Assembly (NCBI GenBank): GCA_018402305.1
Contig: JAGYJE010000007.1
Location: 62,001-126,000 of the forward strand
Length of the DNA: 64,000 bases
DNA from: Puniceicoccaceae bacterium
Lineage (GTDB): Bacteria; Verrucomicrobiota; Verrucomicrobiia; Opitutales; Coraliomargaritaceae
Direction: 5' to 3'
This document shows positions 17,481 through 35,645 of this stretch, one piece after another. The position numbers and the translations under genes are program-made. Below the pieces are notes generated by a model. That model was given only the letters and a program-made list of their open reading frames with translations. It was not told the DNA's origin and ran no database searches. Positions within the stretch are counted from its first letter, which is position 1. Every line of letters starts with the position of its first letter.

Positions 17481-18479
17481 TTAAATGCTCAGACCCAACT
17501 GCCCGAAGGCGACACGGCGCTCTTCCAGTAACTCGTCGTTTGAGAGCTTGATTTGCTCCTTGGCATAATCGGTGAGCTGGATGCCCTCGACGACCCGCCA
17601 GTTACCCACGGCATCGACCTTAATGGGCAATGAAGTGATGATGCCCTGGGGTGTGCCGTACTCCCCTTTTGAAAGGACACAAACACTGTGGAAATCCCCG
17701 CGGGTCGGCGTGATTAAATCGACCACCGTGTCGACGACCGCATTTGCGGCCGAGGCAGCGGAAGAGGCACCGCGTGCGGCGATGATGGCCGCCCCGCGCT
17801 TACCCACCGTCGGGACAAAAGTTTCTTTAAGCCAGGCATCATCAGCAATAACATTGGTCGCATTTTGGCGGCCGATTTTTGCGTTGTAGAAATCGGGGAA
17901 CATCGTGGGGCTATGATTACCCCAGACGCAGAGTTCCGTCACGTCCTTCACGGGCACACCCGCTCTTTGCGCTAACTGTGTCTTTGCGCGGTTTTCGTCG
18001 AGACGGGTCATAGCAAAGAACTGCTCGTTGGGAATATCCGGAGCACTTTTCATCGCGATGAGACAGTTCGTATTGCAAGGGTTGCCGACAACGAGAACGC
18101 GTACGCTTTTCTTGGCATGGTCGTTGATTGCCCTGCCCTGACCCACGAAGACCTTGCCGTTGATACCAAGAAGATCAGCGCGCTCCATACCCTGTTTGCG
18201 CGGCACTGAACCGACAAGAAGCGCCCAATCGACGTCCTTGAAGCCAACACTCATATCCGAAGTTTGCACAATTTCTGTTAGCAAAGGAAAGGCACAGTCA
18301 TCCAGCTCCATGGCGACGCCCTGCAAAGCGTTCATCCCTGGCTCAATTTCGATCAGGTTGAGCGCAACGGGCTGGTCCGGCCCAAACATCTGCCCTGAGG
18401 CGATGCGAAAGAGAAGCGCGTAGCCGATATTACCGGCGGCACCTGTGACAGCGATACGTATGGGGGATTTTGGTTTCAT
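17481..18479 (-). CDS. mdh: Malate dehydrogenase
   Basis: The 332-residue NAD-dependent enzyme interconverts malate and oxaloacetate. Features are the Rossmann loop TGAAGNIG (12-19), the substrate loop RKQGMER (94-100) whose Arg residues recognise the second carboxylate of malate, RLDENR (159-164) and the catalytic H189 in WGNHS. The loop argues for malate rather than lactate. Length is normal and no encapsulation peptide is evident. It lies on the same strand as the microcompartment operon, separated from the aldolase by a repeat-flanked cassette. It may be the housekeeping TCA enzyme, or serve the compartment's redox balance together with mqo at 30.3 kb. Confidence 0.92.
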
Positions 18480-18571
18480 AAAAATAGTTTTCTAGTTTTC
18501 GGTTGGCTGGTTTTCGGTTGGGGGGTTCCCGGTTAGGAGGTTTTCGGTTAAGCAGTTTTCGGTTGGGTTGG
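18480..18571. repeat. Left block of TTTTCGGTTG repeats flanking the four-helix-bundle gene
   Basis: About five imperfect tandem copies of (G)TTTTCGGTTG(G) occupy the gap between mdh and the four-helix-bundle gene. They are the reverse complement of the CAACCGAAAA repeats on the other side of that gene, so the gene sits between inverted repeat blocks. Confidence 0.75.
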
Positions 18572-18952
18572 CTACTGCTTTGCGGCTCGATATTTGTTGA
18601 GATAGTTGATGAAGCCGCCGATTAGGCGCTCAGTCTCTTCGGACTGTCGGTAGAGTCTTTGGAATGTCGCTTCGTCGATATAATCAGCATCCAAAAGGTT
18701 ATACAGCTGGCTCCTAAACTCGCATGCGGAACCTTTAGCGATGCGCAGAAAATAGATGAACTCTTTGTTCCCTTCGCGGCCAAATCCTTCCGCGATGTTC
18801 GATTGAGTGGACACAGCCGAACGCCGAATCTGATCACGCAAGCCAAAGTCAGTTGCCAGATCGCCATCTTTACAAAGCCTATAAATGGCAGCGGAAACCT
18901 CTCGTGCCTTCTGCCAAGCTTGAATGTCTTCAAATTTTTCTATTGTGGCCAT
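18572..18952 (-). CDS. Four-helix-bundle protein (S23/IVP family)
   Basis: The 126-residue protein begins MATIEKFEDIQAWQKAREV and contains LRDQIRRSAVSTQSNIAEGF and NKEFIYFLRIAKGSACE, hallmarks of the S23 ribosomal / 23S rRNA intervening-sequence-protein family. Members form four-helix bundles and are often encoded in rRNA intervening sequences or as scattered single genes; function is unclear, and one relative (bAvd) is a diversity-generating-element accessory factor. The ATG was chosen where homology starts. It interrupts the microcompartment operon and is flanked by inverted short-repeat blocks, which suggests a mobile cassette. Confidence 0.85.
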   Translation of the reverse strand: MATIEKFEDIQAWQKAREVSAAIYRLCKDGDLATDFGLRDQIRRSAVSTQSNIAEGFGREGNKEFIYFLRIAKGSACEFRSQLYNLLDADYIDEATFQRLYRQSEETERLIGGFINYLNKYRAAKQ

Positions 18953-18956
18953 TGCT

Positions 18957-19075
18957 AAACTGAAAACCAAATAACCGAGAACCGAACAACTGAGAACCAA
19001 ATAACCGAAAACTGAACAACCGAAAACTGAACAACCGAAAACTGAACAATCGAAAACCGAACAACCGACAAGATC
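18957..19075. repeat. Right block of CCGAAAACTGAACAA tandem repeats
   Basis: Seven or so imperfect tandem copies of a 15-17-bp unit centred on AACCGAAAACTGAAC lie just upstream of the four-helix-bundle gene. They are inverted relative to the block at 18480-18571. Together they bound a roughly 600-bp insertion between mdh and the aldolase gene. Confidence 0.8.
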
Positions 19076-19088
19076 ATGGCCAAACTCG

Positions 19089-20177
19089 TTACGCGAGTTT
19101 TTCCATGATCATGTCGGTGATCCTCTGGACGAGGGCCTCGTCAACATCGCCGGTGGCGGGTGCGCTACCGCAGCCGCAGACGGATGGTTGGGGGGCCGTG
19201 TTGATGGTGGACTCACCGGCATCGCAGAGTTCGCACTCCTTGAGTTCGTCGAGGCGATGGTCGGGCATGCCAAGTTTTTTGCGGAGCTCGATCAGCTCAC
19301 GGAGCTTTTCAGGACCATATTTTTTTGGACCACCAATTTGCATGGTGACTGTGACGGTGTGGCAAAACGCGTCGGTGTTCTCCATTTTCCAGTAGGCGTC
19401 CTCGACATCCTTGCCCCAGCAGATGACGCCATGGTTTTGCATGAGGATGGATTGGTGCTTTTTCGCGAGCTGCCCCACTTCGGCGGCGTTCTCCGGGGTG
19501 CCCGGAGTCTGGTAGCTGGCAAACCCGATCTCGCCGAGAAAAACCTCGGGCTCCGGAATGAGGCAGGAAGGTGGCGTCACCCCAGCCACGGCGAATGCGG
19601 TGGCGTAGATCGGGTGTGCGTGTACACAGGACTTGGCCTTGGGCTCGTTTTTCATGATTCCCAAGTGCGTATTCACCTCAGAGGTCCGGGGGCGCGTGCC
19701 TGCCACCTGGTTGCCGTCGAGATCCACCATGCAGATATCGTCGGGAGTCATGAATCCCTTGGAAATGAGTGTTGGAGTGCAGAGCACGAGGTTATCTCCG
19801 ACGCGCACGGTGATATTACCACCGTTCCCGTCGACATAGCCCTTGTTCCAGATCCGCTGGCCGATGTGGCAGATACGCTCCTTGAGGGCTTGGATCTCGG
19901 GGGAGTAGAAAAACTTTTCGAGCTCCGCCGCTGACTTGGGGTCGCCTCCTGGCTTCCAGTTATACTCGGCATCGGGGAGCTTCGGATCGTGGATGCGGGG
20001 ATTGCTTGAGGCCACGGGACCTGCGCCGGCTTTCGCGACGGCAGCGGGCTTCACCTTATGCTGGCGCAGGATGTCGCGAGCCATGGGTGTCAGCTTGGCA
20101 TCGGCAGGCACCGAGCTGAGGCATTGGCCCTGCTCGATCATTTTTTCGAGGTCTTTTGCAGTGTAAAGTTTGCTCAT
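19089..20177 (-). CDS. BMC-associated class II aldolase (L-fuculose/L-rhamnulose-1-phosphate type)
   Basis: The 362-residue protein would split fuculose- or rhamnulose-1-phosphate into DHAP and L-lactaldehyde inside the microcompartment. The zinc-aldolase core (about 90-310) shows GNGGNI (117-122), the catalytic Glu E167 in TSEVNTHLG, zinc ligands H186 and H188 in VHAHPIY and H249 in QNHGV. An 85-residue N-terminal extension has LTPMARDILRQHKV, like N termini of other BMC proteins. After a Cys/Gly/Pro linker the last 18 residues (VDEALVQRITDMIMEKLA) form an amphipathic helix typical of an encapsulation peptide. It follows three shell or enzyme genes in the leftward operon. Confidence 0.88.
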   Translation of the reverse strand: MSKLYTAKDLEKMIEQGQCLSSVPADAKLTPMARDILRQHKVKPAAVAKAGAGPVASSNPRIHDPKLPDAEYNWKPGGDPKSAAELEKFFYSPEIQALKERICHIGQRIWNKGYVDGNGGNITVRVGDNLVLCTPTLISKGFMTPDDICMVDLDGNQVAGTRPRTSEVNTHLGIMKNEPKAKSCVHAHPIYATAFAVAGVTPPSCLIPEPEVFLGEIGFASYQTPGTPENAAEVGQLAKKHQSILMQNHGVICWGKDVEDAYWKMENTDAFCHTVTVTMQIGGPKKYGPEKLRELIELRKKLGMPDHRLDELKECELCDAGESTINTAPQPSVCGCGSAPATGDVDEALVQRITDMIMEKLA

Positions 20178-20227
20178 GATGAAAGGAAGTTGGGAAGTGT
20201 ATCCGTTTTTGGTTGGAAAGTTCTCAG

Positions 20228-20524
20228 TTAAATAGGTGGTTCGTATTGATAGTGATCGATCAAGGCGACGTTGATGGCGTCAAGGGGTGTTCGGTAGTCA
20301 AAGGGCTGCATGGCCTCGGCGCCCTCCACATAGAGGATATCATCGCCCAGCCCGGCTCCGATGTTGTCATAGACAACAAGGGTCCACCCATCGGAGTGGC
20401 CGTCGGGATTTTTCCCGGACAACTCGTCCTTACCCTGCGGCGCGACGACAATAAAGCGTCCGCCACGAAAGCCGGAGTCGGCCTGGCTGAGGGTGAGGTT
20501 TCCGATGACTTTACCCACTTTCAT
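20228..20524 (-). CDS. BMC-P pentameric shell vertex protein (EutN/CcmL family), copy 1
   Basis: The 98-residue protein has the EutN/CcmL beta-barrel pattern: MKVGKVIGNLTLSQ at the start, FIVVAPQGKD, DNIGAGLGDDILYVEG and ALIDHY near the end. Such proteins form pentamers capping the vertices of the polyhedral shell. Its ATG overlaps the stop of the preceding pentamer gene (ATGA), so the two are translationally coupled. It is one of three different BMC-P proteins here. The insert between the first strands (KDELSGKNPDGHSDGW) is longer than in copy 2. Confidence 0.93.
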   Translation of the reverse strand: MKVGKVIGNLTLSQADSGFRGGRFIVVAPQGKDELSGKNPDGHSDGWTLVVYDNIGAGLGDDILYVEGAEAMQPFDYRTPLDAINVALIDHYQYEPPI

Positions 20525-20793
20525 GGCAGGATCGACTCGGCATCAACGAGGCCCATAACTTGGTTGCGGATTGGTGATGTCATGTCGTGCAGCGTGTTTT
20601 GCGTCCAGGACCCATCCGTCGTGACAAAGACGCGTGTGTGTCGCCCTGCCCCAATCGGATCGACCGCCCCGAACGGTGGCCCCGTGTCGGCTCCCTGCTC
20701 GTCAACGGGCGTGCAAAGTACAATCTTCTGTGCTTTGAGGCTGGGGTGACCAGTGCTGATAACAACATGGCCGTCTACACGGGCGAGGAGCAT
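20521..20793 (-). CDS. BMC-P pentameric shell vertex protein (EutN/CcmL family), copy 2
   Basis: The 90-residue protein starts MLLARVDGHVVISTGHP and shows KIVLCTPVDEQG, FGAVDPIGAGRHTRVFVTTDG and MGLVDAESI, the pentamer fold in variant form. I took the ATG where family homology begins, ten bases after the aldehyde dehydrogenase stop, although the frame is open further upstream. It differs strongly from the other two BMC-P proteins, as in other Planctomycetes-Verrucomicrobia loci, which typically carry three. Confidence 0.9.
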   Translation of the reverse strand: MLLARVDGHVVISTGHPSLKAQKIVLCTPVDEQGADTGPPFGAVDPIGAGRHTRVFVTTDGSWTQNTLHDMTSPIRNQVMGLVDAESILP

Positions 20794-20803
20794 TATACGG
20801 GAT

Positions 20804-22249
20804 TTAGAAGAGATTGAGTTGATCGACCAGGGTGCAGCGGCGGAAACGGGTGAAGGTGCGGGGGGTGGTGATGCCCTCGCCCGTGGTGGTGGCGATGGAG
20901 AAGCTGATGTAGCCCTCCCCACCCATTCCTAGACCGGCGGTACAGGGGCCGTTTTTCACGAAAATACTGGTGTCCATGGCCTGGGCCATACGTGTCATAT
21001 TCGAAACGTTCATGGTGTGAACCATGGCCGAGTGTTTGTAATTGTGCTCGGATTTCTTGGCCAGTTGTACGGCCTCCTCGAAGGTGCCTGTCCGAACGAT
21101 CGGCAGGAGCGGCATCATTTGCTCTTCTTCGACAAAAAGATCATCGGCCTCAGTTTCGGCAATGAGCATTTCAACCTTCGGGTCGATAGTGAGCCCGGCG
21201 ACCCGTGCCAGCACGGCGGCATCCGCGCCAACATATTTCCGGTTAATTACGGCATGTGAACAGCCGCCCCCACCGTCTTTGATGTCGAAGACCTCTTTTT
21301 TGATCGCTTCGGTTTGCTGCTGTGTGAGCAGCACCGCACCTTGGCGCTTAAAGGCATCAATGGTCTTCTGGTAGGCACTCCCCACGCCGAAGATTTGCTT
21401 CTCACCAATGCAGAGCAGATTGTTATCGAAACCGCCGCCAAAGATAATATCGCGAGCGACCTTATCAAAATCGAGTGCGGAGCAATCATCCACCACGACG
21501 GGCGGATTACCCGGCCCAGCACAAAGGGCGCGCTTGCCGGTCTTCATGGCTGCATCGACGACCCCGGGGCCGCCGGTGATGCAAAGCAGGTTTACATTTT
21601 TGGAGGCACAAAGCTCGTTAAATGATTCGATGGTCGGGGACTCGACGGTACAGATCAGGTTGGTGATGCCGAGCTCCGCTTTGATGACCTCATTAAACTC
21701 ATGGATCGCAACAGCCGCGCACTTCGCACCTCCCGGGTGTGGGTTGAATACCACCGCATTACCCGCCGCCACCATATTCACGATGTTTCCGGAAATTGTC
21801 GGGATCGAGTGCGTTACAGGAGTAATGCTGCCGATAACGCCCCAGGGAGCTGAATCGTCCATCGTAATGCCCGCATCACCGCTCATGCCGTAGGGCTTGA
21901 GATACTCCGTGCCCAGGACATTCTTGATGCCCAGCAACTTGGCAATCTTGTGATCGAGGCGTCCAATCCGGGTCTCATCAAACTCAATCTTGCCCCAGCG
22001 TTCGGCGTTGGCCGTGCACATCGACTTGATGATTTCCACAACCTTTGCCCGGCCCGCCCAGCCTTTTTTGGAAAGCTGTTCAAACCCGCTCCGGGCGGCC
22101 GCAGCCGCTGTTTCAGCGTCGGCAAAGACTCCGTGACGCCCGGTACCGGAAAGAATGGCGGGTGTTTTGGCAATAGTCCCGGAAGCGCGGAGTTGGCTCA
22201 GCACCTCGGTCACGACGTCGCGGATGGCGGATTCGTTTATTTGACTCAT
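20804..22249 (-). CDS. CoA-acylating aldehyde dehydrogenase (PduP/EutE-like)
   Basis: The 481-residue enzyme would oxidise L-lactaldehyde to lactyl-CoA with NAD+ inside the compartment. Residues 3-20 (QINESAIRDVVTEVLSQL) form a predicted amphipathic encapsulation helix, followed by a flexible linker. The catalytic cysteine is C280 in FDNNLLCIGEK; ITPVTHSIPT and VVFNPHPGGAK are cofactor-site motifs, and CITGGPGVV is the PduP/EutE signature. Length is normal (about 460-490). It sits between pentamer genes, 18 bp after BMC-P copy 3. Substrate is inferred from the aldolase next to it. Confidence 0.93.
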   Translation of the reverse strand: MSQINESAIRDVVTEVLSQLRASGTIAKTPAILSGTGRHGVFADAETAAAAARSGFEQLSKKGWAGRAKVVEIIKSMCTANAERWGKIEFDETRIGRLDHKIAKLLGIKNVLGTEYLKPYGMSGDAGITMDDSAPWGVIGSITPVTHSIPTISGNIVNMVAAGNAVVFNPHPGGAKCAAVAIHEFNEVIKAELGITNLICTVESPTIESFNELCASKNVNLLCITGGPGVVDAAMKTGKRALCAGPGNPPVVVDDCSALDFDKVARDIIFGGGFDNNLLCIGEKQIFGVGSAYQKTIDAFKRQGAVLLTQQQTEAIKKEVFDIKDGGGGCSHAVINRKYVGADAAVLARVAGLTIDPKVEMLIAETEADDLFVEEEQMMPLLPIVRTGTFEEAVQLAKKSEHNYKHSAMVHTMNVSNMTRMAQAMDTSIFVKNGPCTAGLGMGGEGYISFSIATTTGEGITTPRTFTRFRRCTLVDQLNLF

Positions 22250-22267
22250 TCGTTCAGTTTTTTAAGA

Positions 22268-22582
22268 TTAGCTGTTCCGGGCTTCATAGGTCTTTTTGCC
22301 CTCAATGCTCACTGTATCAATCAGGCCAACAATTGCGGCATCGACGGGCAATGCCTTCAATCCCTCGGCCTGGCGGGCTGAACTGCCCTGCGAAAACATG
22401 ACGAGTTCACCCTCCCCCGCCCCGAGCGTGTCGATGGCCACAATGGTATTGCTGCCCGGCTTGAAGCGGGAGGGATCCTCCGGATCAACCAGCATGGGGC
22501 GCACCATAAGCAGCTTACGGCCACGCATGCTGGCATCCTTTTTCGTCGAGACGACGGAGCCTATGACTTTTCCGAGATACAT
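22268..22582 (-). CDS. BMC-P pentameric shell vertex protein (EutN/CcmL family), copy 3
   Basis: The 104-residue protein starts MYLGKVIGSVVSTKKDASM and has RGRKLLMVRPM, SNTIVAIDTLGAGEGELVMFSQGSSAR and AAIVGLIDTV, the closest of the three to canonical EutN/CcmL. It would cap shell vertices. It lies five bases after the BMC-H gene upstream and 18 bases before the aldehyde dehydrogenase, clearly within the same transcript. Confidence 0.95.
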   Translation of the reverse strand: MYLGKVIGSVVSTKKDASMRGRKLLMVRPMLVDPEDPSRFKPGSNTIVAIDTLGAGEGELVMFSQGSSARQAEGLKALPVDAAIVGLIDTVSIEGKKTYEARNS

Positions 22583-22587
22583 CGGGC

Positions 22588-22893
22588 TTATTTTGCAGCA
22601 CGCTTGGGAGCGGACTTGAGCGATGGAACGATGCTTTCAACATCTTCATGCGGACGCGCGATAACGTGTGCGCTGACCACCTCGCCGTAGCGGCCTGCCG
22701 CTTCGGCGCCGGCCTCGATAGCCGCGTTGACGGCAGCCACATCGCCCGTGATAATTGCGCTAACGAGTGCGCTGCCGACGCCTTTCATCGGGCCCGCCAG
22801 TTCGACGTTTGCTGATTTCAGCATAGCGTCTGTGCCTTGGACGAGGCCAATGAGCCCTTTAGTTTCGAGAATTCCGATTGCTTGTTTTGCCAT
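22588..22893 (-). CDS. BMC-H hexameric shell protein, copy 1 (C-terminal Lys-rich tail)
   Basis: The 101-residue protein begins MAKQAIGILETKGLIGLVQG and has the BMC fold ending in VIARPHED. The pore-loop region reads KGVGSALVSAIITGDV, so the usual small-Gly pore triad is altered (GSA). A basic tail SLKSAPKRAAK extends beyond the standard 90-residue domain. Hexamers of this kind tile the shell facets. It is separated from ackA by 58 bp and followed immediately by BMC-P copy 3. Confidence 0.95.
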   Translation of the reverse strand: MAKQAIGILETKGLIGLVQGTDAMLKSANVELAGPMKGVGSALVSAIITGDVAAVNAAIEAGAEAAGRYGEVVSAHVIARPHEDVESIVPSLKSAPKRAAK

Positions 22894-22951
22894 GATTTTA
22901 TGTGGGTTGATTGATGATGAGATTGGTGGTTTTGGTTTGTTTGTTGAAATA

Positions 22952-24136
22952 TTAACTGGCTTGCACATAACGAAAAACCTCCCGGGCGATGACAAGTTCC
23001 TCGTTGGCCGGGATGACGATGACTTTGATTTTCGAATCCTTGGTACTGATAAATCCCTCGGTTCCGCGAATCGCCTTTGTGTTAGCCTGGGGATCGATCT
23101 GTACACCCAAATCCTCAAGGCCAGCGCAGACTGCAGCACGCAGATCGGCGTCGTTCTCACCGATGCCTGCAGTGAAGGTGATGGCCTCGGCCCCACCCAT
23201 TTTGAAAAAGAATGAGCCAGCCCAATGGCGGATGCTATCAACCAGGACCTCGGTGGCTAGGGCTGCATTGCCGTTGCCCGCTTCGGCGGCTTCCCGGATA
23301 TCACGGGCATCGTTACTCACACCGGAGAGTCCAAGGAGACCGCTCTCCTTGTTGAGTTGGCGCTCTGCCTCCTCAAGTGAAAGGCCGAGCATTTTACACA
23401 CGTAGGGAATAGCCATTGAGTCGAGGTCCCCCACCCGGTTATTTTGTGGCAGGCCACTCTGTGGGCTGAAGCCCATGCTACTCCCAACGGCGAGGCCGTT
23501 CTGAATACCCGTCACGGAACTGCTCCCACCAAGGTGGCAGGAGAGCACCCGCAGAGGGGCGCCGCAATAATTGCCCGGACCGTCGGTGTAGAGGCGGCGA
23601 ACCCGATCGGCAACCGCCTCATTGCCCAACAAATCGGCCGAGCGTTCAGCCACGAATTTGTGGCTGGCACCGTGAAACCCGTAGCGCCGAATACCCAGAT
23701 TCCGCCAGGTTTCGGGAATCGCGTAGTGGTAGGCCGCTGGTTCCATCCATTGGTAAAAGGCGGTCTCAAAGAGCGCCACCCTCGGGACCGAGGGAAGCAT
23801 CTCTGCGAAGCACCGAATGCCTGCCGCATAGGCTGGGTTGTGGGCGGGTGCCACTTCCTTGAAGCCGTTCAGCGCCTCCAAAACACCTTCGTCTGCTGCG
23901 ACACAACCGCTCAAATCCTTGCCGAGGACCGTCTTAAAACCAACGGCCCCAATGGCTTCACCGGACTCAACATGTCCGTCGCCGACCAGCGTCTCCAACA
24001 TCGTCGTGATGCACCTCGTGTAGTCGGTGACCCGCTCGTATCCACCACTGGCCAGCTGCACAGCATGGCCCGCGTCCATATCGAAAAGTCGATACTTGAA
24101 CGAGGTGGAACCGAGGTTGGCGATGAGGATTTTCAT
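22952..24136 (-). CDS. ackA: Acetate kinase family acyl-phosphate kinase
   Basis: The 394-residue enzyme transfers phosphate from an acyl-phosphate to ADP. In this locus it would convert the PduL product (lactyl- or acetyl-phosphate) to the acid, yielding ATP. Motifs are NLGSTSFKYRLF at the start, GFHGASHKFVAER, HLGGSSSVTGIQNG, SPQSGLPQNNRVGDLD and FTAGIGENDADLR. The start was set at MKILIANLG, the family N terminus; the frame continues 14 codons upstream into the BMC-H spacer. It has no evident encapsulation peptide. Placement between BMC-H genes is strong evidence for a compartment role. Confidence 0.92.
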   Translation of the reverse strand: MKILIANLGSTSFKYRLFDMDAGHAVQLASGGYERVTDYTRCITTMLETLVGDGHVESGEAIGAVGFKTVLGKDLSGCVAADEGVLEALNGFKEVAPAHNPAYAAGIRCFAEMLPSVPRVALFETAFYQWMEPAAYHYAIPETWRNLGIRRYGFHGASHKFVAERSADLLGNEAVADRVRRLYTDGPGNYCGAPLRVLSCHLGGSSSVTGIQNGLAVGSSMGFSPQSGLPQNNRVGDLDSMAIPYVCKMLGLSLEEAERQLNKESGLLGLSGVSNDARDIREAAEAGNGNAALATEVLVDSIRHWAGSFFFKMGGAEAITFTAGIGENDADLRAAVCAGLEDLGVQIDPQANTKAIRGTEGFISTKDSKIKVIVIPANEELVIAREVFRYVQAS

Positions 24137-24165
24137 GGCGCGAAGCGGATAACCGCGCAGCGAAG

Positions 24166-24444
24166 CTACCCAATCCAACTACCGAGCTTGCTCAGGTCGT
24201 CGTGGGGGCGTGGGATCACCTGCACAGCGACCACCTCTCCGACAGCACCCGCTGCGTCCGCACCGGCTTCGACCGCGGCTTTAACGGCGGCGACATCGCC
24301 AGTGAAGAAGGCAGTGACGAGGCCACTGCCGATTTTTTCGTAGCCGGTCATGACGACATCAGCTGATTTAAGTGCGGCATCGGATGCTTCCATGAGGCTC
24401 ACGAGCCCCTTGCATTCGATCATTCCAATTGCTTGTTTTGCCAT
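24166..24444 (-). CDS. BMC-H hexameric shell protein, copy 2
   Basis: The 92-residue single-domain BMC protein starts [20 protein letters not shown] and contains [30 protein letters not shown] and [12 protein letters not shown]. The pore motif GSG is the usual hydrophilic PduA-like form. It lies 29 bp upstream of ackA and 21 bp after BMC-H copy 3 in the leftward operon. Confidence 0.96.
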
Positions 24445-24465
24445 AATAATGATCCCTGATTTGGG

Positions 24466-24735
24466 TTATGCTTGAAAGTGCTTTAATAAATCATCGTGCG
24501 GACGCGCGATGACGTGGGAGGCGACGAGTTCACCAACGCGGTTGGCGGCTTCAGCACCCGCTTCGACGGCAGCTTTTACGCTGCCAACATCCCCTTTTAC
24601 GAGAACAGTCAAAAAACCGCCGCCGATGGAGATTTGTTTTACAAGGCTGACCGAGGCCGCCTTGGCCATGGCATCACTGGCTTCAATAGAGCCGGTAAGA
24701 CCTTTTGTTTCTACTAATCCGATGGATTCACTCAT
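24466..24735 (-). CDS. BMC-H hexameric shell protein, copy 3
   Basis: The 89-residue BMC-domain protein starts [20 protein letters not shown] and has the pore region [19 protein letters not shown], then [16 protein letters not shown] and [13 protein letters not shown]. The GGG pore and following Phe differ from the other two BMC-H proteins. It is the second gene of the operon after pduL (36-bp gap). No BMC-T (tandem-domain) gene is found anywhere in the window. Confidence 0.96.
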
Positions 24736-24771
24736 GATGTTTGTGGGTTGATTTGGTATTGAATTATGAGA

Positions 24772-25500: not shown

Positions 25501-25549
25501 TAGAGTTGCTTGGCTAAATCTTTGTTTATTTGGGATTCGTTTCTTTTTT

Positions 25550-25564
25550 TTGACCTTAAGTCAA
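25550..25564. promoter_or_regulatory. Candidate DeoR operator between pduL and the regulator
   Basis: TTGAC and GTCAA form a perfect inverted repeat with a 5-base CTTAA spacer, in an A/T-rich 107-bp divergent intergenic region. The half-sites resemble -35 elements on both strands. A regulator bound here could control both the shell operon and its own operon. No experimental motif for this regulator is known to me, so this is inference from symmetry and position. Confidence 0.4.
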
Positions 25565-25607
25565 CATATTTCTTGCATTATTCAATAAAAAACCAAAGAT
25601 ATTCCTA

Positions 25608-27841: not shown

Positions 27842-27929
27842 GTGAATCCATAAGACGCTCTCATATCCTCGTTTACCCGACGACCATCATCGACAAAATA
27901 ATGTCTATCCGTTAGAAACTGAGTGACTC

Positions 27930-29018
27930 ATGAACCAAAAATACCTCAACTACCTCAATCAAATTAAAGGCAAGATTCTTTTGGGCTGCGACGGCTTTGT
28001 GGACGAAACCTATGAGATCGTGGAAGAACGAAAAAGTCTCGCCGATGTCAGAACCATGCAGAACCTCCGGATGTTCGGGGAGCTTTTGGTCAATCGGGCG
28101 GATGGCGGCGTCGGGGTTGAACTCATTCCCAAGCGACGTTGTGAAGGCGGCTTCGGAGTCAATACGGCTCGGCTCGCCGCTGTTCTCGGGCTCCAACCCG
28201 TCCTGCCCGGGCTCTACGGAAAGAACGCAATCGATCCGGCTTTTGAAGAATTTCAGGACTCCTGCCATCTTTATTCCCTCGGCGATCCCGCCCTGACCAT
28301 TGCCCTGGAGTTCAATGATGGTAAGGTGCTCATGAGTAATCTTCAGGCAGTATCGAATTTGACCTGGGATGATTTTGAAGCTTTTTTTGGCCCGGAAAAG
28401 CTTCGTGAGCTGTTTTCAGATGTCGCTATTCTGGGGCTTGGTTACTGGTCACTGACGGCCGACTTCGACAATCTGTTCAAAGGCTTCATGAAGCAATACG
28501 AGTCGTTGAAGGCCCCGCAGCGGATGTTCTTCGATTTTGCGGACATCAAGAAAAAATCCAGCGAGTCGTTCATGGCATCCCTGAGCTTGATTGCGTCGTT
28601 TAATTCGAGGATCCCCATGACTCTAAGCCTGAATGAGCACGAGGTCTTTGAATTGTTTGCGCGGACAGGCGTCGATTGCCAGGATCGCGCCCCGGCGGCG
28701 GTCGCCGCTGCCTTGACCATCGCCCGCCAGAAGATCGGTTTCGATGAACTCGTCGTGCACACTCCGGAGTTTGCAGCGGCCTCCAGCACGGCCGACGGCG
28801 AGGCTCATGCCCTGCAGGAACGCCAGACCAAGGTGATACGCTCTGCCGGAGCCGGTGATAGTTTCAACGGCGGTTACATCTGCGCTTCCCTCGGCGAAAT
28901 TCCCATTAGAGAGCGGCTTGTAATCGCCAATGCGGCAACGGCGTACTTCGTGACCCACGCCGCCGCCCCCACCAAAGGGGAACTCGTCGCGCAAATCGAA
29001 AAAGCCCGCGACCACTGA
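27930..29018 (+). CDS. PfkB-family kinase of the sugar locus
   Basis: The 362-residue ribokinase-fold protein has DGFVD (21-25), EFNDGK in mid-protein, MFFDFADIKK and the catalytic GAGD (307-310) with SFNGGY. It is a distant paralogue of the kinase at 8529-9638. The known fucose/rhamnose pathway does not need a second kinase, so its substrate is unknown; an alternative ketose, an aldolase by-product or a regulatory sugar are possible. It lies between the FGGY kinase and the DUF4432 gene in the rightward operon. Confidence 0.82.
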   Translation: MNQKYLNYLNQIKGKILLGCDGFVDETYEIVEERKSLADVRTMQNLRMFGELLVNRADGGVGVELIPKRRCEGGFGVNTARLAAVLGLQPVLPGLYGKNAIDPAFEEFQDSCHLYSLGDPALTIALEFNDGKVLMSNLQAVSNLTWDDFEAFFGPEKLRELFSDVAILGLGYWSLTADFDNLFKGFMKQYESLKAPQRMFFDFADIKKKSSESFMASLSLIASFNSRIPMTLSLNEHEVFELFARTGVDCQDRAPAAVAAALTIARQKIGFDELVVHTPEFAAASSTADGEAHALQERQTKVIRSAGAGDSFNGGYICASLGEIPIRERLVIANAATAYFVTHAAAPTKGELVAQIEKARDH

Positions 29019-29057
29019 GCCGACCCAAAACATTCAAACCAAAGACCCCACCCAACC

Positions 29058-30239
29058 ATGACGCCACCGTTCAAAATCCCTCTTCTGCAGCCCGACTCCC
29101 GGCAGGGTTTTCTGCACCTAAGTCTTCAGGACGAGGACACACCCTTCAGTTGGAGCGTGCAATCCTACACCTTGCGCGGCGGCTTGCAGGATGGCGTCGA
29201 CGTGGTCGAAATTTATAACGGAAAGCTCCGCCTCGCTGTGCTCCCGACACGCGGCATGGGCATTTGGAAGGCGCAGTGCGGCAAGCGACCGCTTGGTTGG
29301 GAGTCGCCTGTCAAGCAACCGGTGCACCCCGCTTTCATCAATTCACAAGAGCGCGGTGGCCTCGGCTGGCTGAAGGGTTTCAACGAGTGGTTCGTGCGCT
29401 GCGGCCTCAACAGCATGGGTGCTCCCGGCATGGATACCGTTCTGGACTACAGCGGCAACGCCGTTGACGTGCCCCTGACCCTGCACGGCAACATCGCCAA
29501 CATACCGGCTCACGCTGTCGAACTGGAAGTCACCGAGACGGCCATCCTACTTCGCGGGGAGATCGATGAGACCATGATGTTCGGTCCTGCCCTGCGTTTA
29601 AAGACAGAGATACGAACCGATTTCGCATCGGGATCCATGACCGTTACCGATACGGTAACCAATCTGGGCAATAACCCTGTCGAGCACCAGATGCTCTACC
29701 ATATTAACTACGGCGCGCCCTTGCTGGAAAAAGGCGCACGCCTACTCGCCCCCTTCAAGCAAGTCGCCCCACGGGACGCCCGCTCGGCTGAGGGGGTTGG
29801 TGACTTTGACCACTACGGTCCACCTCAGGTCGGTTTCGTCGAGCAGGCCTACTATTTTGAATTACTTGGGCAACGCGGCAGCCGGGAGACCATGGCCCTG
29901 CTCCGCAATGCGGCGGGTGACCAAGCCTCACTGCTCCGCTTTTCACTAAACGACTTCCCCTGCTTCACGCTCTGGAAAAATACCGCGGGTTCGGCCGATG
30001 GCTACGTGACGGGGCTGGAACCCGCGACCAGCTACCCCAATACCCGGCGCTTTGAGCGGGAAAAAGGCCGCGTCCTCGTGCTGGGTGGTGGTGAGTCACG
30101 GACGACCGAAATAAGAATCGAAAATTTGGATACAAAGACGGCTGTTCGCTCAGCCGAATCGGAAATCAAAAAACTGCAAAAAAGGGCTAAGCCAAAAGTC
30201 AGCGCAAACCCACTGGCCGCTTACTCCAACGTTTCCTAA
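29058..30239 (+). CDS. DUF4432 aldose-1-epimerase-like protein
   Basis: The 393-residue protein belongs to the galactose-mutarotase superfamily, DUF4432 group: LRLAVLPTRGMGIWKAQ, GFNEWFVRCGLNSMGAPG, LHGNIANIPAH and MLYHINYGAPLLEKG. The His in LHGNIA and the YHINYG segment occupy positions used for catalysis and sugar binding in mutarotases. It may interconvert sugar anomers or act on a sugar derivative. A dedicated fucose mutarotase (FucU) is encoded downstream, so it may serve another sugar or step. Gaps of 39 and 23 bp tie it to its neighbours. Confidence 0.82.
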   Translation: MTPPFKIPLLQPDSRQGFLHLSLQDEDTPFSWSVQSYTLRGGLQDGVDVVEIYNGKLRLAVLPTRGMGIWKAQCGKRPLGWESPVKQPVHPAFINSQERGGLGWLKGFNEWFVRCGLNSMGAPGMDTVLDYSGNAVDVPLTLHGNIANIPAHAVELEVTETAILLRGEIDETMMFGPALRLKTEIRTDFASGSMTVTDTVTNLGNNPVEHQMLYHINYGAPLLEKGARLLAPFKQVAPRDARSAEGVGDFDHYGPPQVGFVEQAYYFELLGQRGSRETMALLRNAAGDQASLLRFSLNDFPCFTLWKNTAGSADGYVTGLEPATSYPNTRRFEREKGRVLVLGGGESRTTEIRIENLDTKTAVRSAESEIKKLQKRAKPKVSANPLAAYSNVS

Positions 30240-30262
30240 ATAACCACAACCCAAGCAATTCC

Positions 30263-31765
30263 ATGAAAAGTACACACCACATCGAAGATCCCGACGTCGT
30301 ATTGATCGGCGCGGGCATCATGTCATCCACTCTGGGCGCCATGCTCAAAGAGCTGGACCCCACCCTGAAGATACAGCTTTATGAGATGACCGAGGGCTTC
30401 GGTGAGGAGGCCTCCAGCGGTTGGCACAACGCGGGCACGGGTCACGCCGGGCTCTGTGAGCTTAGCTACACGCCTGACTACGGGCCCGACGGAGAGGTCG
30501 CCGTTGGCAAGGCAATCGAGATTTTCAACCAATTCGAGCAATCCAAGCAGTTTTGGGCCTACGCGGTCCGCACGGGCATGCTCTCGAACACCGCAGACTT
30601 CATCAACCCGGTCCCGCACCTCAGCTTCGTTTATGGTCAGGAGCAGGTCGATTTTTTGCGCTCCCGCTTTAAGCAAATGAAGGCGCATCACTTCTACGAA
30701 GCGATGACCTACACAGAAGATCGCGATGAAATAAAGGCGCTCGCCCCCCTTCTCGTGGAAGGCCGCGACGACACACCCATCGCTGTGACCAAGATGGAGC
30801 TTGGCACCGATGTGAACTTTGGTGCGCTCTCGGGGAAATTCGTGGAATGGCTCGGCAAACAGGCCGGTGCCGGCTACGCCACAAGCCACCGCGTGCTGGA
30901 CATCACAAAATCAAATGGCCGCTGGACCCTGAAGATTAAGGACCTCGATTCCGGTCGTGTCTTTACCAATACAGCCAAATTTGTCTTCATCGGTGCAGGT
31001 GGTGGTAGTTTGCCACTCCTGCAAAAGTCCGGCATCGCCGAGGCCAAGGGCTTCGGCGGCTTCCCCATCGGGGGCCAGTGGCTGGTTTGCGACAAACCGG
31101 AAATCGTGGAAAAGCACATGGCTAAAGTGTATGGTATGTCGCCCGGTGCCGCGCCAACCATGGCGGTACCCCACCTTGATACCCGCGTCATCAACGGAAA
31201 AAAGGCCCTCCTATTTGGCCCCTACGCGGCGTGGACGACCAAGTTCCTCCACGTCAAGGGAAGTATCACCGACCTGCCCGCCTCCATCCGCACGGACAAC
31301 ATCGCCTCACTGGTCAAGGTGGGGCTGCACAACATCCCACTGGTGCGTTACCTTATTCAACAGGGAACCCAGAGCATGAAGACGCGCATGGGCGAACTCC
31401 TCAAATTCTATCCGGCCGCCAACCCCGAGGACTGGGAGTTGATTGATGCCGGCATTCGCGTGCAAGCAATCAAGAAGGAGGACGGCGACGCCGGTATCGT
31501 TCACTTTGGCACCGAGGTCATCACCTCTCAGGACCGCAGCATATCCGCCCTGCTGGGGGCCTCCCCGGGCGCCTCGGTATCGACGAACATCATCGTTGAG
31601 GTCGTCAAACGCTGCTTCGCCGAGAAACTGGCCACTCCCGAGGGCCATGAACGTATGAAGGCCATGGTGCCCTCCTACGATGAAGACCTCAGTCTCCCCG
31701 AACACGCCGAGCGTCAAAGAACACTCAGCGAGGAAGCCTTTAAAACCCTTAATTGTATCCGCTAA
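30263..31765 (+). CDS. mqo: Malate:quinone oxidoreductase family protein
   Basis: The 500-residue FAD enzyme would oxidise malate to oxaloacetate and reduce membrane quinone. The FAD-binding [68 protein letters not shown] and the C-terminal [14 protein letters not shown] are all Mqo hallmarks and length is normal. Its location inside a sugar operon between the DUF4432 gene and fucU is unusual. It may pair with mdh at 17.5 kb to pass NADH electrons to quinone, or have shifted to another 2-hydroxy acid such as lactate; sequence alone does not decide. Confidence 0.9.
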
Positions 31766-31770
31766 ACTCT

Positions 31771-32205
31771 ATGCTGAACGGAATCCCCCCTATCCTCTCT
31801 CCCGAGTTGCTCGACGCCCTTTACCGCATGGGGCATGGCGACGAAATTCTCCTCGCCGATGCTCATTTCCCGGGTGATCGATTAGGTCGGCGAGTCATTC
31901 GTGCCGATGGCCTGAAGACTCCGGATTTGCTAAATGCCATTCTGCCGCTCTTTCCGCTCGATACCTTCGTCGACGCGCCCATCTCCATGATGGAAGCGGT
32001 GCCGGGTGACGCGCTCGACCCAAACGTCGAAGCGGCCTACCGCACAGCTATCGGTCAGGCTGGAGCGAACGCCGACGGCCCCATCGAGCGCATCGAGCGC
32101 TACGCCTTTTACGAGCGTGCCAAGGGCTGCTTTGCCATCGTCATAACCGGCGAAATGGCAAAATACGGAAACATCATCCTCAGAAAAGGGCTCGCCAACA
32201 TCTAG
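31771..32205 (+). CDS. fucU: L-fucose mutarotase (RbsD/FucU family)
   Basis: The 144-residue protein starts [18 protein letters not shown] and shows the FucU signature [15 protein letters not shown], with the catalytic His in GHGDE, plus [16 protein letters not shown] near the end. It interconverts alpha- and beta-L-fucose anomers. The start is the ATG six codons inside the open frame, five bases after the mqo stop. It is the clearest single indication that L-fucose is the substrate of the locus. Confidence 0.93.
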
Positions 32206-32322
32206 AACTTATTAAAAAGATGATTGGCTGCTGATCTTGATGCCTCTACGCATTCGGATTTAAATCAACTTCAGTCGATCCGGAGTCCTGTCACCACATC
32301 CACACCCCCATAACCTTTCATT

Positions 32323-33948
32323 ATGCCTAAGAATAAAACTGTCCTGCTCGTCGCCAACGGCGATCTACGTCTCTCCGCTAACCAAAACTGCTGGGCCAAG
32401 CAAGAAGCCATGGAGGCCGAACTAAGCAGCGTGCTCAAGGAACTGGGGGGTGACCTCAAGCGGGCCCACAAATACGACCCCGAGGTGAAGCACGGCTTTA
32501 TCTCCAGTCAGCGGCAGGGCATGGATATTTTCGCGAAGATTGATCGCAAGGCGCCGCTCATTGTCGCCGAGGCGGTCTGGCAATACTCGCACCACCTGCT
32601 GCACGGCCTCATGTCGCACGAGGGGCCCATCCTCACGGTGGCCAACTGGAGCGGCACCTGGCCGGGGCTCGTTGGTATGCTCAACCTCAACGGTTCATTG
32701 ACCAAAGCAGGTGTTCACTACTCCACCTTGTGGAGTGAGGACTTCAGCAACGACAAACGTTTCCAAAAAAAGCTCAAGAAGTGGCTCGAAACGGGTTCGG
32801 TAAGCCACCCCACCGCTCATGTTCGAAAATACAAGAGCAAGGAGACGGCAAAGGGCTTGAAGAACGCGGCCCGCCAGATCCGCGATGATCTGGACCGCAA
32901 CAAAGCGATCCTCGGGGTCTTTGATGAGTTTTGCATGGGTATGTATAATGCCGTTATTCCGGACGAGCTACTTTTCCAAACCGGCGTATTCAAAGAACAA
33001 CTCTCCCAAAGCGCCCTCTTCGCAGAAATGCAGACGGTCAGCAAGGCAGAGGCCGATGAAGTCTACAACTTTATCGTCGGTAAGGGCTTTAACTTCCACT
33101 ACGGGCGCAATGCCAAAACCGGCCTGACCAAGGCTCAAGTGCTGGAGCAGTGCAAAATGTATATCGCGGCCTGCCGCATCGGTGACACCTTCGGTTGCGA
33201 TGCACTCGGCATTCAATACCAACAGGGTCTCAAAGACCTCTGCCCCGCGTCTGACTTGGTTGAAGGCATGCTGAACAGTACGGATCGCCCGCCGGTGAAA
33301 AATGCCAAAGGCGCAATCATCAAAGCAGGTGAGACCTACCCTCACTTCAATGAAGTCGATGAATGCTGCGGACTGGACGCACTCATGACCAAGCGGGTGC
33401 ACGCCGCACTCAAGCAGCCGACCGAAACCACCCTGCACGATCTTCGCTGGGGCGATTGGGATGCCTCCGGCACGACCAAGGACTACGTCTGGGTCTTCCT
33501 CATTTCCGGCTCTGCTCCGATCGAGCACCATGTGGGTGGATGGAAAGGCAGCCACGGCTATCGACAGCCCGCCATGTATTTTCCTCAAGGCGGCAGCACC
33601 CTGCACGGTATCGCCAAACCCGGCGAAATCGTCTGGAGCCGCGTTTTCGTGGAAGACGGTAAGCTCAAGATGGATCTGGGCCGTGCCAAGGCGATCGAGT
33701 TGCCCGAGGCGGAAACCCAGCGTCGGCTGAAAGAGACGACGCCACAATGGCCCATCATGCATGCTGTCACCTATGGTGTTAGCCGAGATCAAATGATGGC
33801 CCGGCACAAGGCGAACCATATCAACGTCGCCTACGCCACCGATGCGAAACAAGCCGATAATTGCCTCTACGCAAAAGCCGAACTGGCCAAGCAAATGGGC
33901 ATGGAGGTCTATGTTTGCGGCACGAATGCAGCCGGTAAGAAGCTGTAG
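32323..33948 (+). CDS. L-fucose/L-arabinose isomerase superfamily protein
   Basis: The 541-residue protein has the overall layout of the fucose isomerase superfamily: an N-terminal Rossmann-like part ([15 protein letters not shown]), a middle domain with [19 protein letters not shown] and [12 protein letters not shown], and a C-terminal barrel with [15 protein letters not shown] and D residues in DEFCMGM and the EVDECCG segment are candidate metal ligands. It is shorter and divergent from the roughly 590-residue canonical FucI, so it is a FucI-like member rather than a clear orthologue. With fucU upstream and fucP downstream it should convert L-fucose to L-fuculose. Confidence 0.8.
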
Positions 33949-33959
33949 CGACGTTTCGG

Positions 33960-34137
33960 TTGAACATCGAACGTTGAACATCAAACGCTCAACGCTCAAT
34001 TTGACCGACCCCGATTTCAATGTTCAAGGTTCCCTCCCGTCACATTCAATATTCAGTATTCATCTCGCCTTCCTAATTCGACGTTCGATGTTCGATGTTC
34101 AACGTTCGACGTTCAACGTTCGATGTTCAACGTTCCC
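33960..34137. repeat. GTTCAACGTTCGA-type short repeats upstream of fucP
   Basis: The gap between the isomerase and fucP contains about seven copies of a GTTCGATGTTCAAC/GTTCGACGTTCAAC motif (34081-34137) and an inverted set reading GAACATCGAACGTTGAAC near 33962-33990. A diverged relative is seen at 39000-39030. These are low-complexity dispersed repeats that extend the upstream open frame of fucP artificially. Confidence 0.75.
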
Positions 34138-34151
34138 CTCCTCTAAGTCCC

Positions 34152-35645
34152 ATGTCTAATACCTCCGCCGCCCCTGCGATTCCACGGAAATTCCTCTTTT
34201 CCTTCGTGCTTGTCACGATTCTGTTCGCCCTCTGGGGCTTTGCCAATGACATCACGAATCCGCTTGTTGCGGCGTTTAAAGACATCTTTGTCATCAACAA
34301 TGCACAAAGCAGCTGGGTTCAGATGGCTTTCTACGGCGGCTACGGGACCATGGCCATTCCCGCCGCCCTCTTTATCCGTCGCTATTCGTATCGTGCGGGT
34401 ATCATTGTCGGTCTTTCGCTCTATGCTATCGGCGCCTTCATCTGTATCCCCGCCGCCAACATGGCGAGCTTTAATACCTTTCTCGTCGCCCTGTATGTGC
34501 TTACGTTCGGTCTGGCCTTTTTGGAAACGACCGCCAATCCCTACATCCTTTCCATGGGACCGGCCAAAACAGCCACCTTCCGGCTCAACTTGGCTCAGGC
34601 CTTCAATCCGATCGGCTCGCTGACCGGGATGACCATCGCCAGTCTATTCATCCTTTCCAGCCTCGAGGTCGAGGATTTCCGTACCGATTTCACCGCCCAC
34701 CAGATCGATCAGGGCATCGTGCAGACGGCCGAGCTTGAGAATAAGGTGCTCCCCTTTCTTCAATCCAGGGAACGCACTCCGATAAACGATCCGGTGCTCG
34801 CGCAATACGTCCGTGCCAACCCCGGAGCGTCGCTCGACGACGCCCTTGCCGACTATAAGAGTGGCACACTCACGACCTTTAATGGGCTGACCCACCGGGA
34901 AATGCAGAACAACGACCTCAACATCGTTTCCACTCCCTACATGGTCATCGGCTTTGTTGTGCTTGGTGTGTTGGTCCTTTTTCTTGTCAACAAATTGCCC
35001 CAAACAACAGACGTAAACGACGAGCGGGAGCACTCGCCACTCAAGGATATTTTGGCGCGACTGGCGAAAAACCCGCTCTACCTGGGTGGCATCGTTGCCC
35101 AGACTTTTTACGTGGGCGCGCAAATCATGTGTTGGACCTTTATCATCCAATACGCGCAGGAGAATCTGGGTATGGATAAATCCACAGCACAGAACCACAA
35201 CATTGCTGCTATGGTGATCTTCGTCAGCGGGCGTTTCATCTGCACCTATTTCCTTCGCTTCATCAGCCCCGGTGCGCTGCTCGCCGCGCTCTCGGTGGCA
35301 GCGATGGCGGCGACGCTGGGGGCTATTTACATAGAAGGAATGACGGGGCTCTACTGCCTGATGGCGATTTCGGCCTGCATGTCCCTCATGTTCCCCACGA
35401 TTTACGGCATCGCGCTTGATGGCCTCGGCCCGGATGCGAAGATTGCCTCTGCGGGCCTAATCCTCGCGATTGTCGGCGGTGCTTTCATGCCGCGCTTGCA
35501 AGGCGGCATTATGGATATGGAAACGTTTATGGGCACCACCGGTGTGCGGGGTTCTTTTTTCCTTCCTTTCATTTGTTTCGTCGTGATCGCCGCCTACGCC
35601 CTGTTCACCGTCCGCCAGCACAAGTTGCATAAGATGGTTCAATAG
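34152..35645 (+). CDS. fucP: L-fucose:proton symporter, MFS (FucP-like)
   Basis: The 497-residue inner-membrane protein has about 12 predicted helices. The first helix region FVLVTILFALWGFANDITNPL and the QMAFYGGYG and LFLETTANPYILSMGP-type (here AFLETTANPYILSMG) motifs are typical of FucP. A roughly 90-residue polar loop between helices 6 and 7 (about 185-270) is longer than in E. coli FucP. The start was chosen at MSNTSAAPAIPRK; upstream codons are repeat-derived. It ends the rightward sugar operon. Confidence 0.93.
   Translation: MSNTSAAPAIPRKFLFSFVLVTILFALWGFANDITNPLVAAFKDIFVINNAQSSWVQMAFYGGYGTMAIPAALFIRRYSYRAGIIVGLSLYAIGAFICIPAANMASFNTFLVALYVLTFGLAFLETTANPYILSMGPAKTATFRLNLAQAFNPIGSLTGMTIASLFILSSLEVEDFRTDFTAHQIDQGIVQTAELENKVLPFLQSRERTPINDPVLAQYVRANPGASLDDALADYKSGTLTTFNGLTHREMQNNDLNIVSTPYMVIGFVVLGVLVLFLVNKLPQTTDVNDEREHSPLKDILARLAKNPLYLGGIVAQTFYVGAQIMCWTFIIQYAQENLGMDKSTAQNHNIAAMVIFVSGRFICTYFLRFISPGALLAALSVAAMAATLGAIYIEGMTGLYCLMAISACMSLMFPTIYGIALDGLGPDAKIASAGLILAIVGGAFMPRLQGGIMDMETFMGTTGVRGSFFLPFICFVVIAAYALFTVRQHKLHKMVQ

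Follow-up and report, generated by a model that had tools for sequence, protein, structure and literature searches.

The Planctomycetes-Verrucomicrobia (PVM) type of bacterial microcompartment (BMC) was reportedly described by Erbilgin in 2014. It combines a class II aldolase with a triplet of BMC-P shell genes and is assigned to the substrate class L-fucose/L-rhamnose (Axen 2014, PMC4207490; Sutter 2021, PMC8217296; statements on cited papers refer, here and below, to the sections accessible to us). NAD+ regeneration is ascribed to a lactate/malate dehydrogenase, and this step and the fate of the products are treated as open in the literature (PMC4207490). We analyzed a 64,000-nucleotide stretch of the genome of a Puniceicoccaceae bacterium (GenBank GCA_018402305.1, contig JAGYJE010000007.1, positions 62,001 to 126,000), hereafter the window. 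At positions 17481-35645 it holds a BMC locus made of two divergent gene runs (table 1). In our labels, G### designates genomes and L### fetched loci; the source genome is G000 and the window G000:C67:62001-126000.

The locus shares with the PVM type a PF00596 class II aldolase encoded in the shell operon, a CoA-acylating aldehyde dehydrogenase (AldDH), PduL, AckA, BMC-H genes and a BMC-P triplet, a DeoR-family regulator and a lactate/malate dehydrogenase-family gene in the corresponding slot (PMC4207490; PMC8217296). FucU and FucP score above curated cut-offs. This content supports its identification as a PVM-type microcompartment for L-fucose/L-rhamnose, of a kind already described and common (PMC4207490; PMC8857213), as an initial annotation of this DNA had proposed. 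All the genes named there (three BMC-H, three BMC-P, PduL, AckA, AldDH and class II aldolase, and divergently DeoR, a sugar kinase, FucU, a FucI-like isomerase and FucP) are present with profile matches. Some identities could be refined: the sugar kinase is rhamnulokinase-like (RhaB), the PfkB kinase is of ketohexokinase type (Khk), and the FucI-like match is weak and partial. Like the PV-BMC loci of North Sea Puniceicoccaceae and Akkermansiaceae, assigned to fucose/rhamnose, the window has three BMC-H and three BMC-P genes in two contiguous stretches and an AraD-like aldolase (PMC8857213). It therefore lacks the BMC-P excess of the PVM type and has the 3+3 form known for Verrucomicrobiota (PMC8857213). 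Other differences from the PVM type are a malate dehydrogenase (MDH) of cytosolic type, where more distant loci encode a lactate/malate dehydrogenase (LDH/MDH)-family enzyme of about 308 residues, a quinone-linked oxidoreductase of the Mqo family at the locus, and an additional satellite locus with a tandem BMC gene elsewhere in the genome. The accessible text on the North Sea loci mentions no Mqo/Lut gene and no satellite aldolase (PMC8857213).

We consider it likely that the window encodes a PVM organelle for L-fucose and/or L-rhamnose with pyruvate as its end point, and that the satellite provides a second, non-phosphorylative entry. This reading draws on gene content, conserved gene order, slot replacements, co-occurrence and tail conservation; the catalytic steps, the sugar, the encapsulation and the building of one shell from both loci are proposed from them. 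FucP would import the sugar and FucU interconvert its anomers; the isomerase would make the ketose and the RhaB-like kinase phosphorylate it. Inside a shell of three BMC-H and three BMC-P, the class II aldolase would release dihydroxyacetone phosphate (DHAP) and L-lactaldehyde, AldDH and PduL would convert L-lactaldehyde into lactyl-phosphate, and AckA would yield L-lactate and ATP. MDH would reduce oxaloacetate and so regenerate NAD+. The Mqo-family enzyme would oxidize L-lactate to pyruvate and pass the electrons to the quinone pool. The satellite aldolase would cleave a 2-keto-3-deoxy sugar acid to pyruvate and L-lactaldehyde in the same shell, of which the tandem shell protein would be a tile. 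More broadly, and here we see the chances as even, the PVM organelle may be an exchangeable lactaldehyde-handling unit: two aldolases, one of class II and one tailed and DHDPS-related with its own tile (perhaps BMC-T plus BMC-H), would feed one shell, and at this locus a single fused enzyme would repeatedly have replaced the whole unit.

We surveyed 74 genomes, the source genome (a 3.1-Mb draft in 76 contigs, 90% complete) and 73 relatives, 43 of them of the same family. BMC domains were found in 37 genomes, G000 included, and in 25 of the 43 family genomes. The order of the shell operon is identical in the fetched family loci and mostly so in the order-level loci; because it recurs in relatives, the gene order is not due to chance. 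The comparison with verrucomicrobial loci that the initial annotation had suggested thus bore out the operon order. Its view that the layout is unusually complete was not supported, given the frequency of BMC domains in the family and the recurrence of the extra genes, as a RhaB-Khk-DUF4432-Mqo run in G003, G005 and G028 and a RhaB-Mqo-FucU-FucI-FucP run in G018. The word "complete" also overlooked the second BMC locus, and the label "import-to-acid" probably stops one step short, the Mqo-family gene occupying the slot of L-lactate oxidation.

The evidence for this slot comes from gene replacement. In five family loci (L063, L064, L068, L069, and L071), LutA, LutB, and LutC directly follow RhaB where the window has Mqo; the LutB and LutC domains were confirmed. 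LutB was found in 16 of the 74 genomes, 15 of which have a BMC. Among the 37 BMC genomes, 14 carry LutB only, 17 the window's Mqo class only, one (G031) both, and five neither. LutB or the window's Mqo class is present in 45 of the 52 genomes with a BMC or with RhaEW, the fused enzyme discussed below, versus 3 of the 22 others (Fisher P = 3e-9, uncorrected for ancestry). Of the family's 25 BMC genomes, 23 encode one or the other at some position, and it lies directly after or close to RhaB in the family loci wherever the fetched contig extends that far. Parsimony gave five Mqo/Lut changes over 27 tips on a FastTree tree, some of whose nodes are weakly supported (0.24-0.56). Mqo classes were distinguished by PF06039 score: about 630-672 bits for class B, that of the window, to which a 168-bit fragment in G010 was added, and 755-777 bits for class A; fragments in G028, G033, and G044 were left unclassed. 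A second class, about 50% identical to the window's enzyme, is encoded away from the locus in G001, G004, G005, G017, G021, G024, G028, G044, and G063. The L-lactate:quinone oxidoreductase Lqo belongs to the Mqo family, in agreement with the NCBIfam model list. Staphylococcal Lqo has been described alongside Mqo (PMC5312079). Because two unrelated oxidases interchange in one slot, and because the partner RhaEW yields L-lactate, the substrate of the window enzyme is probably L-lactate, which would make it an L-lactate:quinone oxidoreductase and pyruvate the end point of the pathway. A lactate-to-pyruvate conversion has been suggested for a dehydrogenase at the BMC locus of another verrucomicrobium (PMC11596606). 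Identification as Lqo through curated models failed, the score being below the cut-off of NF040844, and we limit the claim to an Lqo-like working. Nor is Mqo an obligatory part of the BMC, being encoded in BMC-less genomes as well and missing from most of the BMC genomes beyond this family.

RhaEW combines rhamnulose-1-phosphate aldolase and short-chain dehydrogenase in one bifunctional enzyme (NF006189, 1038 bits). Ten loci (L081-L088, L093, and L097) retain the DeoR-RhaB-Mqo side and have RhaEW on the other side instead of the BMC operon, mostly accompanied by a second gene of the class II aldolase family. It was found in 15 of the 74 genomes, in none of the 37 with a BMC and in 15 of the 37 without (Fisher P = 1e-5, shared ancestry ignored); the source genome lacks it. 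On a tree of DeoR plus RhaB with 30 tips (FastTree, some weak nodes of 0.24-0.56), at least three changes between BMC and RhaEW are required, and G015 and its group nest beside the BMC genomes G022 and G026 with a support of 1.0. RhaEW was shown to produce L-lactate and DHAP, and lactate dehydrogenase genes join RhaEW regulons in some bacteria (PMC3870299). The window organelle would give the same two products. The natural substitution of one bifunctional enzyme for an 11-gene operon, while regulator and kinase stay the same, provides matched genome pairs for asking what benefit the shell brings.

The gene that follows the class II aldolase is also subject to replacement. In the family it is MDH: a copy at least 84% identical is present in all 25 BMC genomes, on the BMC contig in 23, and the source genome encodes a separate MDH, about 67% identical, elsewhere. 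Among 18 more distant loci, the slot holds an LDH/MDH-family enzyme in ten and the family's MDH in L048; no redox gene was seen there in L045, L049, L056, L058, L060, and L061. The distant LDH/MDH-family enzymes fall below both the LDH and the MDH cut-offs (two tested) and have an arginine at the position which, we presume, decides for malate over lactate. In L059 (G080; 14936-16799), an RnfC/PduS-like protein and, next to it, a PduT-like tandem BMC occupy the slot, with no lactate/malate dehydrogenase. Because different redox genes share it, the slot fits a role in NAD+ regeneration. A strictly lumenal MDH was not supported, as it has no visible targeting peptide and is retained beside RhaEW in the BMC-less G015 and G019. 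The slot replacements turn the two open points of the PVM literature, NAD+ regeneration and product fate (PMC4207490), into specific tests, with MDH or the PduS/PduT-like pair as candidate NAD+ regenerators and the Mqo-family enzyme as candidate lactate oxidase. The PVM locus L059 also carries a LutB homologue (40% identical).

The remaining two BMC domains of the source genome lie in one 212-residue tandem PF00936 open reading frame (ORF) outside the window (L006:9819-10457, on G000:C1, the satellite spanning about 42-62 kb of this contig). A DHDPS-family aldolase at L006:8790-9803 (G000:C1:50789-51799) directly precedes it. Upstream are genes for a RhaM-like mutarotase, a RhaT-like transporter, MaoC, a CoA-transferase III, a solute-binding-like protein and a Gfo/Idh dehydrogenase, and downstream for a lactonase-like amidohydrolase. 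This locus is a satellite in that its shell gene lies away from the main locus on C67, without BMC-P, in a genome that has a main locus. For the aldolase, the PF00701 match (181 bits), Foldseek template modeling scores of 0.7-0.8, and the invariance of Tyr134 and Lys162 in 21 sequences indicate the DHDPS-family (class I) fold and the Schiff-base lysine region. We take these two residues to be catalytic. A scan of public genomes recovered 25 related loci, all titled Verrucomicrobia or lower groups except L010 (Hydrogenedentota). The tandem BMC adjoins the aldolase in 20 of them; the amidohydrolase is present in 20, RhaM in nine and RhaT in five, and BMC-P genes are present in 23 of the 25 genomes. 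ORF clustering over 26 loci added short-chain dehydrogenases/reductases (SDR, 13), sodium symporters (7), enolase-superfamily dehydratases (6), alpha-L-fucosidases (5) and galactarate-type dehydratases (4). At E ≤ 1e-30, the aldolase has homologues in 11 of the surveyed genomes, ten with a BMC (the match in G072 being only 30% identical).

Several described systems resemble the satellite. Like the "EUT modules", it pairs a signature enzyme with a tandem shell protein at a distance from the main locus, an arrangement proposed there to extend the substrates of the main BMC, and the logic of a second entry parallels this proposal for ethanolamine (Sutter 2021, PMC8217296); unlike them, it encodes a sugar-acid aldolase and a tandem BMC of non-permuted order. 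The non-phosphorylative L-fucose pathway of Campylobacter jejuni (Cj0481) and Sulfolobus likewise uses a DHDPS-family aldolase, a lactonase, a dehydratase, a mutarotase and FucP (PMC6946681), but it is cytosolic, whereas here the aldolase has an extra tail and a shell gene alongside. Fucose pathways without lactaldehyde have been presented as an alternative to the BMC (Orellana 2021, PMC8857213); the satellite would instead join the non-phosphorylative route to the BMC. A BMC "super locus" and a non-phosphorylated L-fucose pathway have been reported for sponge-associated Opitutales (Sizikov 2020, as cited in PMC12263773 and PMC8636102). We found no description of a tailed DHDPS aldolase with a tandem BMC in open-licence papers, and in view of the sponge reports the novelty of our reading of the satellite is uncertain. 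If correct, this reading makes the satellite a naturally modular unit of cargo plus tile, of value in both the study and the engineering of shells, and widens what degraders of algal polysaccharides pass through one organelle.

An encapsulation peptide is a terminal amphipathic helix of about 18 residues after a disordered, poorly conserved linker (PMC12339742). All 26 satellite aldolases inspected by eye end in a helix-like stretch past the family domain, for example VEAIVRDVMRKL, and the alignments of PDB homologues (best 60 of 79) stop by residue 290 of 337. In the structural model (mean predicted local distance difference test [pLDDT] of 80), a barrel is followed by a disordered or low-confidence segment (316-325) and a separate helix (323-336), an arrangement resembling the published definition (PMC12339742). 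The tail is also found on the aldolase homologues of the BMC genomes G014, G017, G055, G062, and G071 and is absent from that of the BMC-less G063. Amphipathicity, significant in 4 of 21 sequences, was too weak to serve as proof of a targeting tail. At the main locus, the final 20 or so residues of the class II aldolase (VDEALVQRITDMIMEKLA) and the N-terminal helix of AldDH resemble encapsulation peptides.

The model of the tandem BMC protein (mean pLDDT 85) shows two BMC folds in non-permuted order, and among PDB entries it matches best a synthetic tandem-containing Haliangium shell (36-37% identity). All 21 sequences compared (our own and 20 others) have an ATG four to six residues before the second domain, in the variable linker. 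By eye, the DNA before it is A-rich with no Shine-Dalgarno-like stretch, as before the BMC-H starts of the window. It is possible that this internal start yields a separate BMC-H besides a trimer-forming BMC-T.

The Mqo-family enzyme might instead be a true malate:quinone oxidoreductase, MDH making malate and Mqo returning oxaloacetate in a shuttle from the organelle to the respiratory chain. The curated model TIGR01320 files it as Mqo (592 bits, cut-off 550), the L-lactate:quinone model NF040844 gives 502 bits, far below its cut-off of 915, and PMC4207490 assigns NAD+ regeneration to a lactate/malate dehydrogenase. Moreover, MDH and the window's Mqo class share a locus here, in nine family BMC loci (L070 and L073-L080; both ends visible or nearly so) and in the BMC-less G015 and G019 (L081 and L082). 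However, the five relatives with LutABC in the Mqo slot retain the same MDH, no such MDH was found beside Mqo in seven BMC-less RhaEW loci (L083-L088 and L097), and most of the more distant PVM loci lack Mqo. LutABC is not known to oxidize malate. The shuttle, initially our first choice, was demoted once LutABC appeared in this slot, and we now hold it unlikely. An ordinary PVM organelle with lactate, or lactate and 1,2-propanediol, as its end point and with the extra genes as incidental neighbors would agree with a core that is the same in kind as in published PVM loci and with the absence of Khk, DUF4432, FucU, FucI-like, and FucP from the loci of some relatives. It seems quite improbable to us in view of the near-constant filling and position of the Mqo/Lut slot in the family. 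As for the satellite, it might serve another substrate or compartment, its tandem BMC belonging to an incomplete or separate shell or its aldolase cleaving a different sugar acid. The aldolase is equally near to DHDPS, N-acetylneuraminate lyase, and YagE-type aldolases; CoA-transferase III and MaoC, each in 7 of the 25 loci, have no place in the proposed pathway; and the source genome's own satellite contains no dehydratase, the candidates lying 46 kb away. The recurrent mutarotase, amidohydrolase, transporter, SDR, dehydratase and fucosidase genes nevertheless fit a deoxy-sugar route, and the satellite has no BMC-P, which 23 of the 25 genomes encode elsewhere. We regard a separate role as rather unlikely.

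Returning to the pyruvate-forming organelle with two entries, several observations besides the model scores weigh against it. Both oxidases are missing from seven of the 52 genomes with a BMC or RhaEW, 3 of the 22 others carry one, and every co-occurrence test ignores shared ancestry. The FucI-like protein of the window is only weakly matched. MDH does not have to act in the shell lumen, having no visible targeting peptide and persisting beside RhaEW in G015 and G019, both without BMC. For the satellite, the tandem BMC is not adjacent in 5 of the 25 aldolase loci, 2 of the 25 genomes are without BMC-P, and an aldolase homologue is present in a BMC-less RhaEW genome, G063. The tail helix is modeled with low confidence (blocks of 52-63), and its hydrophobic moment reaches P < 0.05 in just 4 of 21 sequences, the ends of the window's AldDH and PduL giving 0.06 and 0.71.

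Table 1. Features of the BMC locus and its divergent gene run, in window positions.
Feature	Position	Strand	Evidence
Malate dehydrogenase (MDH), cytosolic type; last gene of the shell operon	17481..18479	-	NF003916 495 bits, TIGR01759 464 bits, both above cut-off; Ldh_1 domains
Four-helix-bundle protein (23S rRNA IVP family), between aldolase and MDH	18572..19000	-	TIGR02436 116 bits
Class II aldolase, PVM signature enzyme	19089..20177	-	PF00596 150 bits
BMC-P 1, shell vertex protein	20228..20524	-	PF03319 62.8 bits
BMC-P 2, shell vertex protein	20521..20793	-	PF03319 63.0 bits
CoA-acylating aldehyde dehydrogenase (AldDH, EutE/PduP type)	20804..22249	-	NF011927 544 bits, above cut-off
BMC-P 3, shell vertex protein	22268..22582	-	PF03319 103 bits
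BMC-H 3, shell protein	22588..22893	-	PF00936 80 bits
AckA, acetate/propionate-type kinase	22952..24136	-	TIGR00016 311 bits, above cut-off
BMC-H 2, shell protein	24166..24444	-	PF00936 91 bits
BMC-H 1, shell protein	24466..24735	-	PF00936 92 bits
PduL phosphotransacylase with N-terminal extension	24772..25500	-	NF011652 240 bits, PF06130 237 bits
Conserved element GTCAACATATTTCTTGCA between the divergent operons	25560..25577	.	Alignment of relatives' intergenic regions
DeoR-family regulator	25608..26372	+	PF00455 133 bits, PF08220 68 bits
Rhamnulokinase-like (RhaB-like) sugar kinase	26345..27841	+	TIGR02627 473 bits, below its cut-off of 528
Ketohexokinase-type (Khk) PfkB kinase	27930..29018	+	Pfam prokaryotic ketohexokinase PF25270 164 bits
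DUF4432 protein	29058..30239	+	PF14486 326 bits
Mqo-family quinone oxidoreductase	30263..31765	+	PF06039 653 bits; TIGR01320 592 bits, above cut-off of 550
FucU L-fucose mutarotase	31753..32205	+	NF011949 183 bits, above cut-off
Divergent FucI-like protein, putative isomerase	32323..33948	+	PF02952 (Fucose_iso_C) 35.8 bits, partial, residues 418-506
FucP L-fucose:H+ symporter	34095..35645	+	TIGR00885 492 bits, above cut-off

The minus-strand operon reads PduL, BMC-H1, BMC-H2, AckA, BMC-H3, BMC-P3, AldDH, BMC-P2, BMC-P1, class II aldolase, four-helix-bundle gene, and MDH. On the plus strand, DeoR is followed by the RhaB-like kinase, Khk, DUF4432, the Mqo-family enzyme, FucU, FucI-like, and FucP; a B12-dependent ribonucleotide reductase comes next, so that this unit ends near 35645. 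The sugar kinase scores much higher with the rhamnulokinase model (473 bits) than with the fuculokinase model (129 bits). The FucI-like protein matched no NCBIfam family (E ≤ 0.001) and had no hit among PDB sequences (E ≤ 0.01). An aldose-epimerase-like role of the DUF4432 protein is a guess. The four-helix-bundle gene looks like a sporadic passenger, because outside the window it is present in just three (L065, L078, and L079) of the 18 family BMC loci (L063-L080).

In the satellite of the source genome, CoA-transferase III, MaoC, and the solute-binding-like protein, in which no signal peptide is obvious by eye, are encoded at L006:4347-7249; this trio recurs in L013, L015, L017, L018, and L029, and MaoC is 80-85% identical across satellite loci. 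The dehydratase candidates are enolase-family genes, the nearest of which lies at G000:C1:2601-6044 (L107), 46 kb from the satellite, where an SDR and a galactonate/rhamnonate-type dehydratase are accompanied, by eye, by an RraA-like ORF and a divergent helix-turn-helix regulator of IclR type. In the BMC-less G063, the tail-less aldolase homologue (L109:5763-6710) stands beside a gluconolactonase-like ORF, with RhaEW elsewhere in the genome, and is possibly a shell-free form of the non-phosphorylative route. The satellite sequences of L009 (an Opitutales metagenome-assembled genome) and L010 (a Hydrogenedentota one whose genome lacks BMC-P) are identical and come from related samples; both were counted among the 25, and one of them, the contig of L010, is probably misbinned.

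Aligning the intergenic region of the divergent operons (window 25501-25607) with 30 related ones showed GTCAACATA, the core of the element GTCAACATATTTCTTGCA, in 17 of the 31. The element is a candidate overlapping promoter/operator, and GTCAACATATNTCTTGCA forms the conserved core of the divergent promoter in most family BMC loci.

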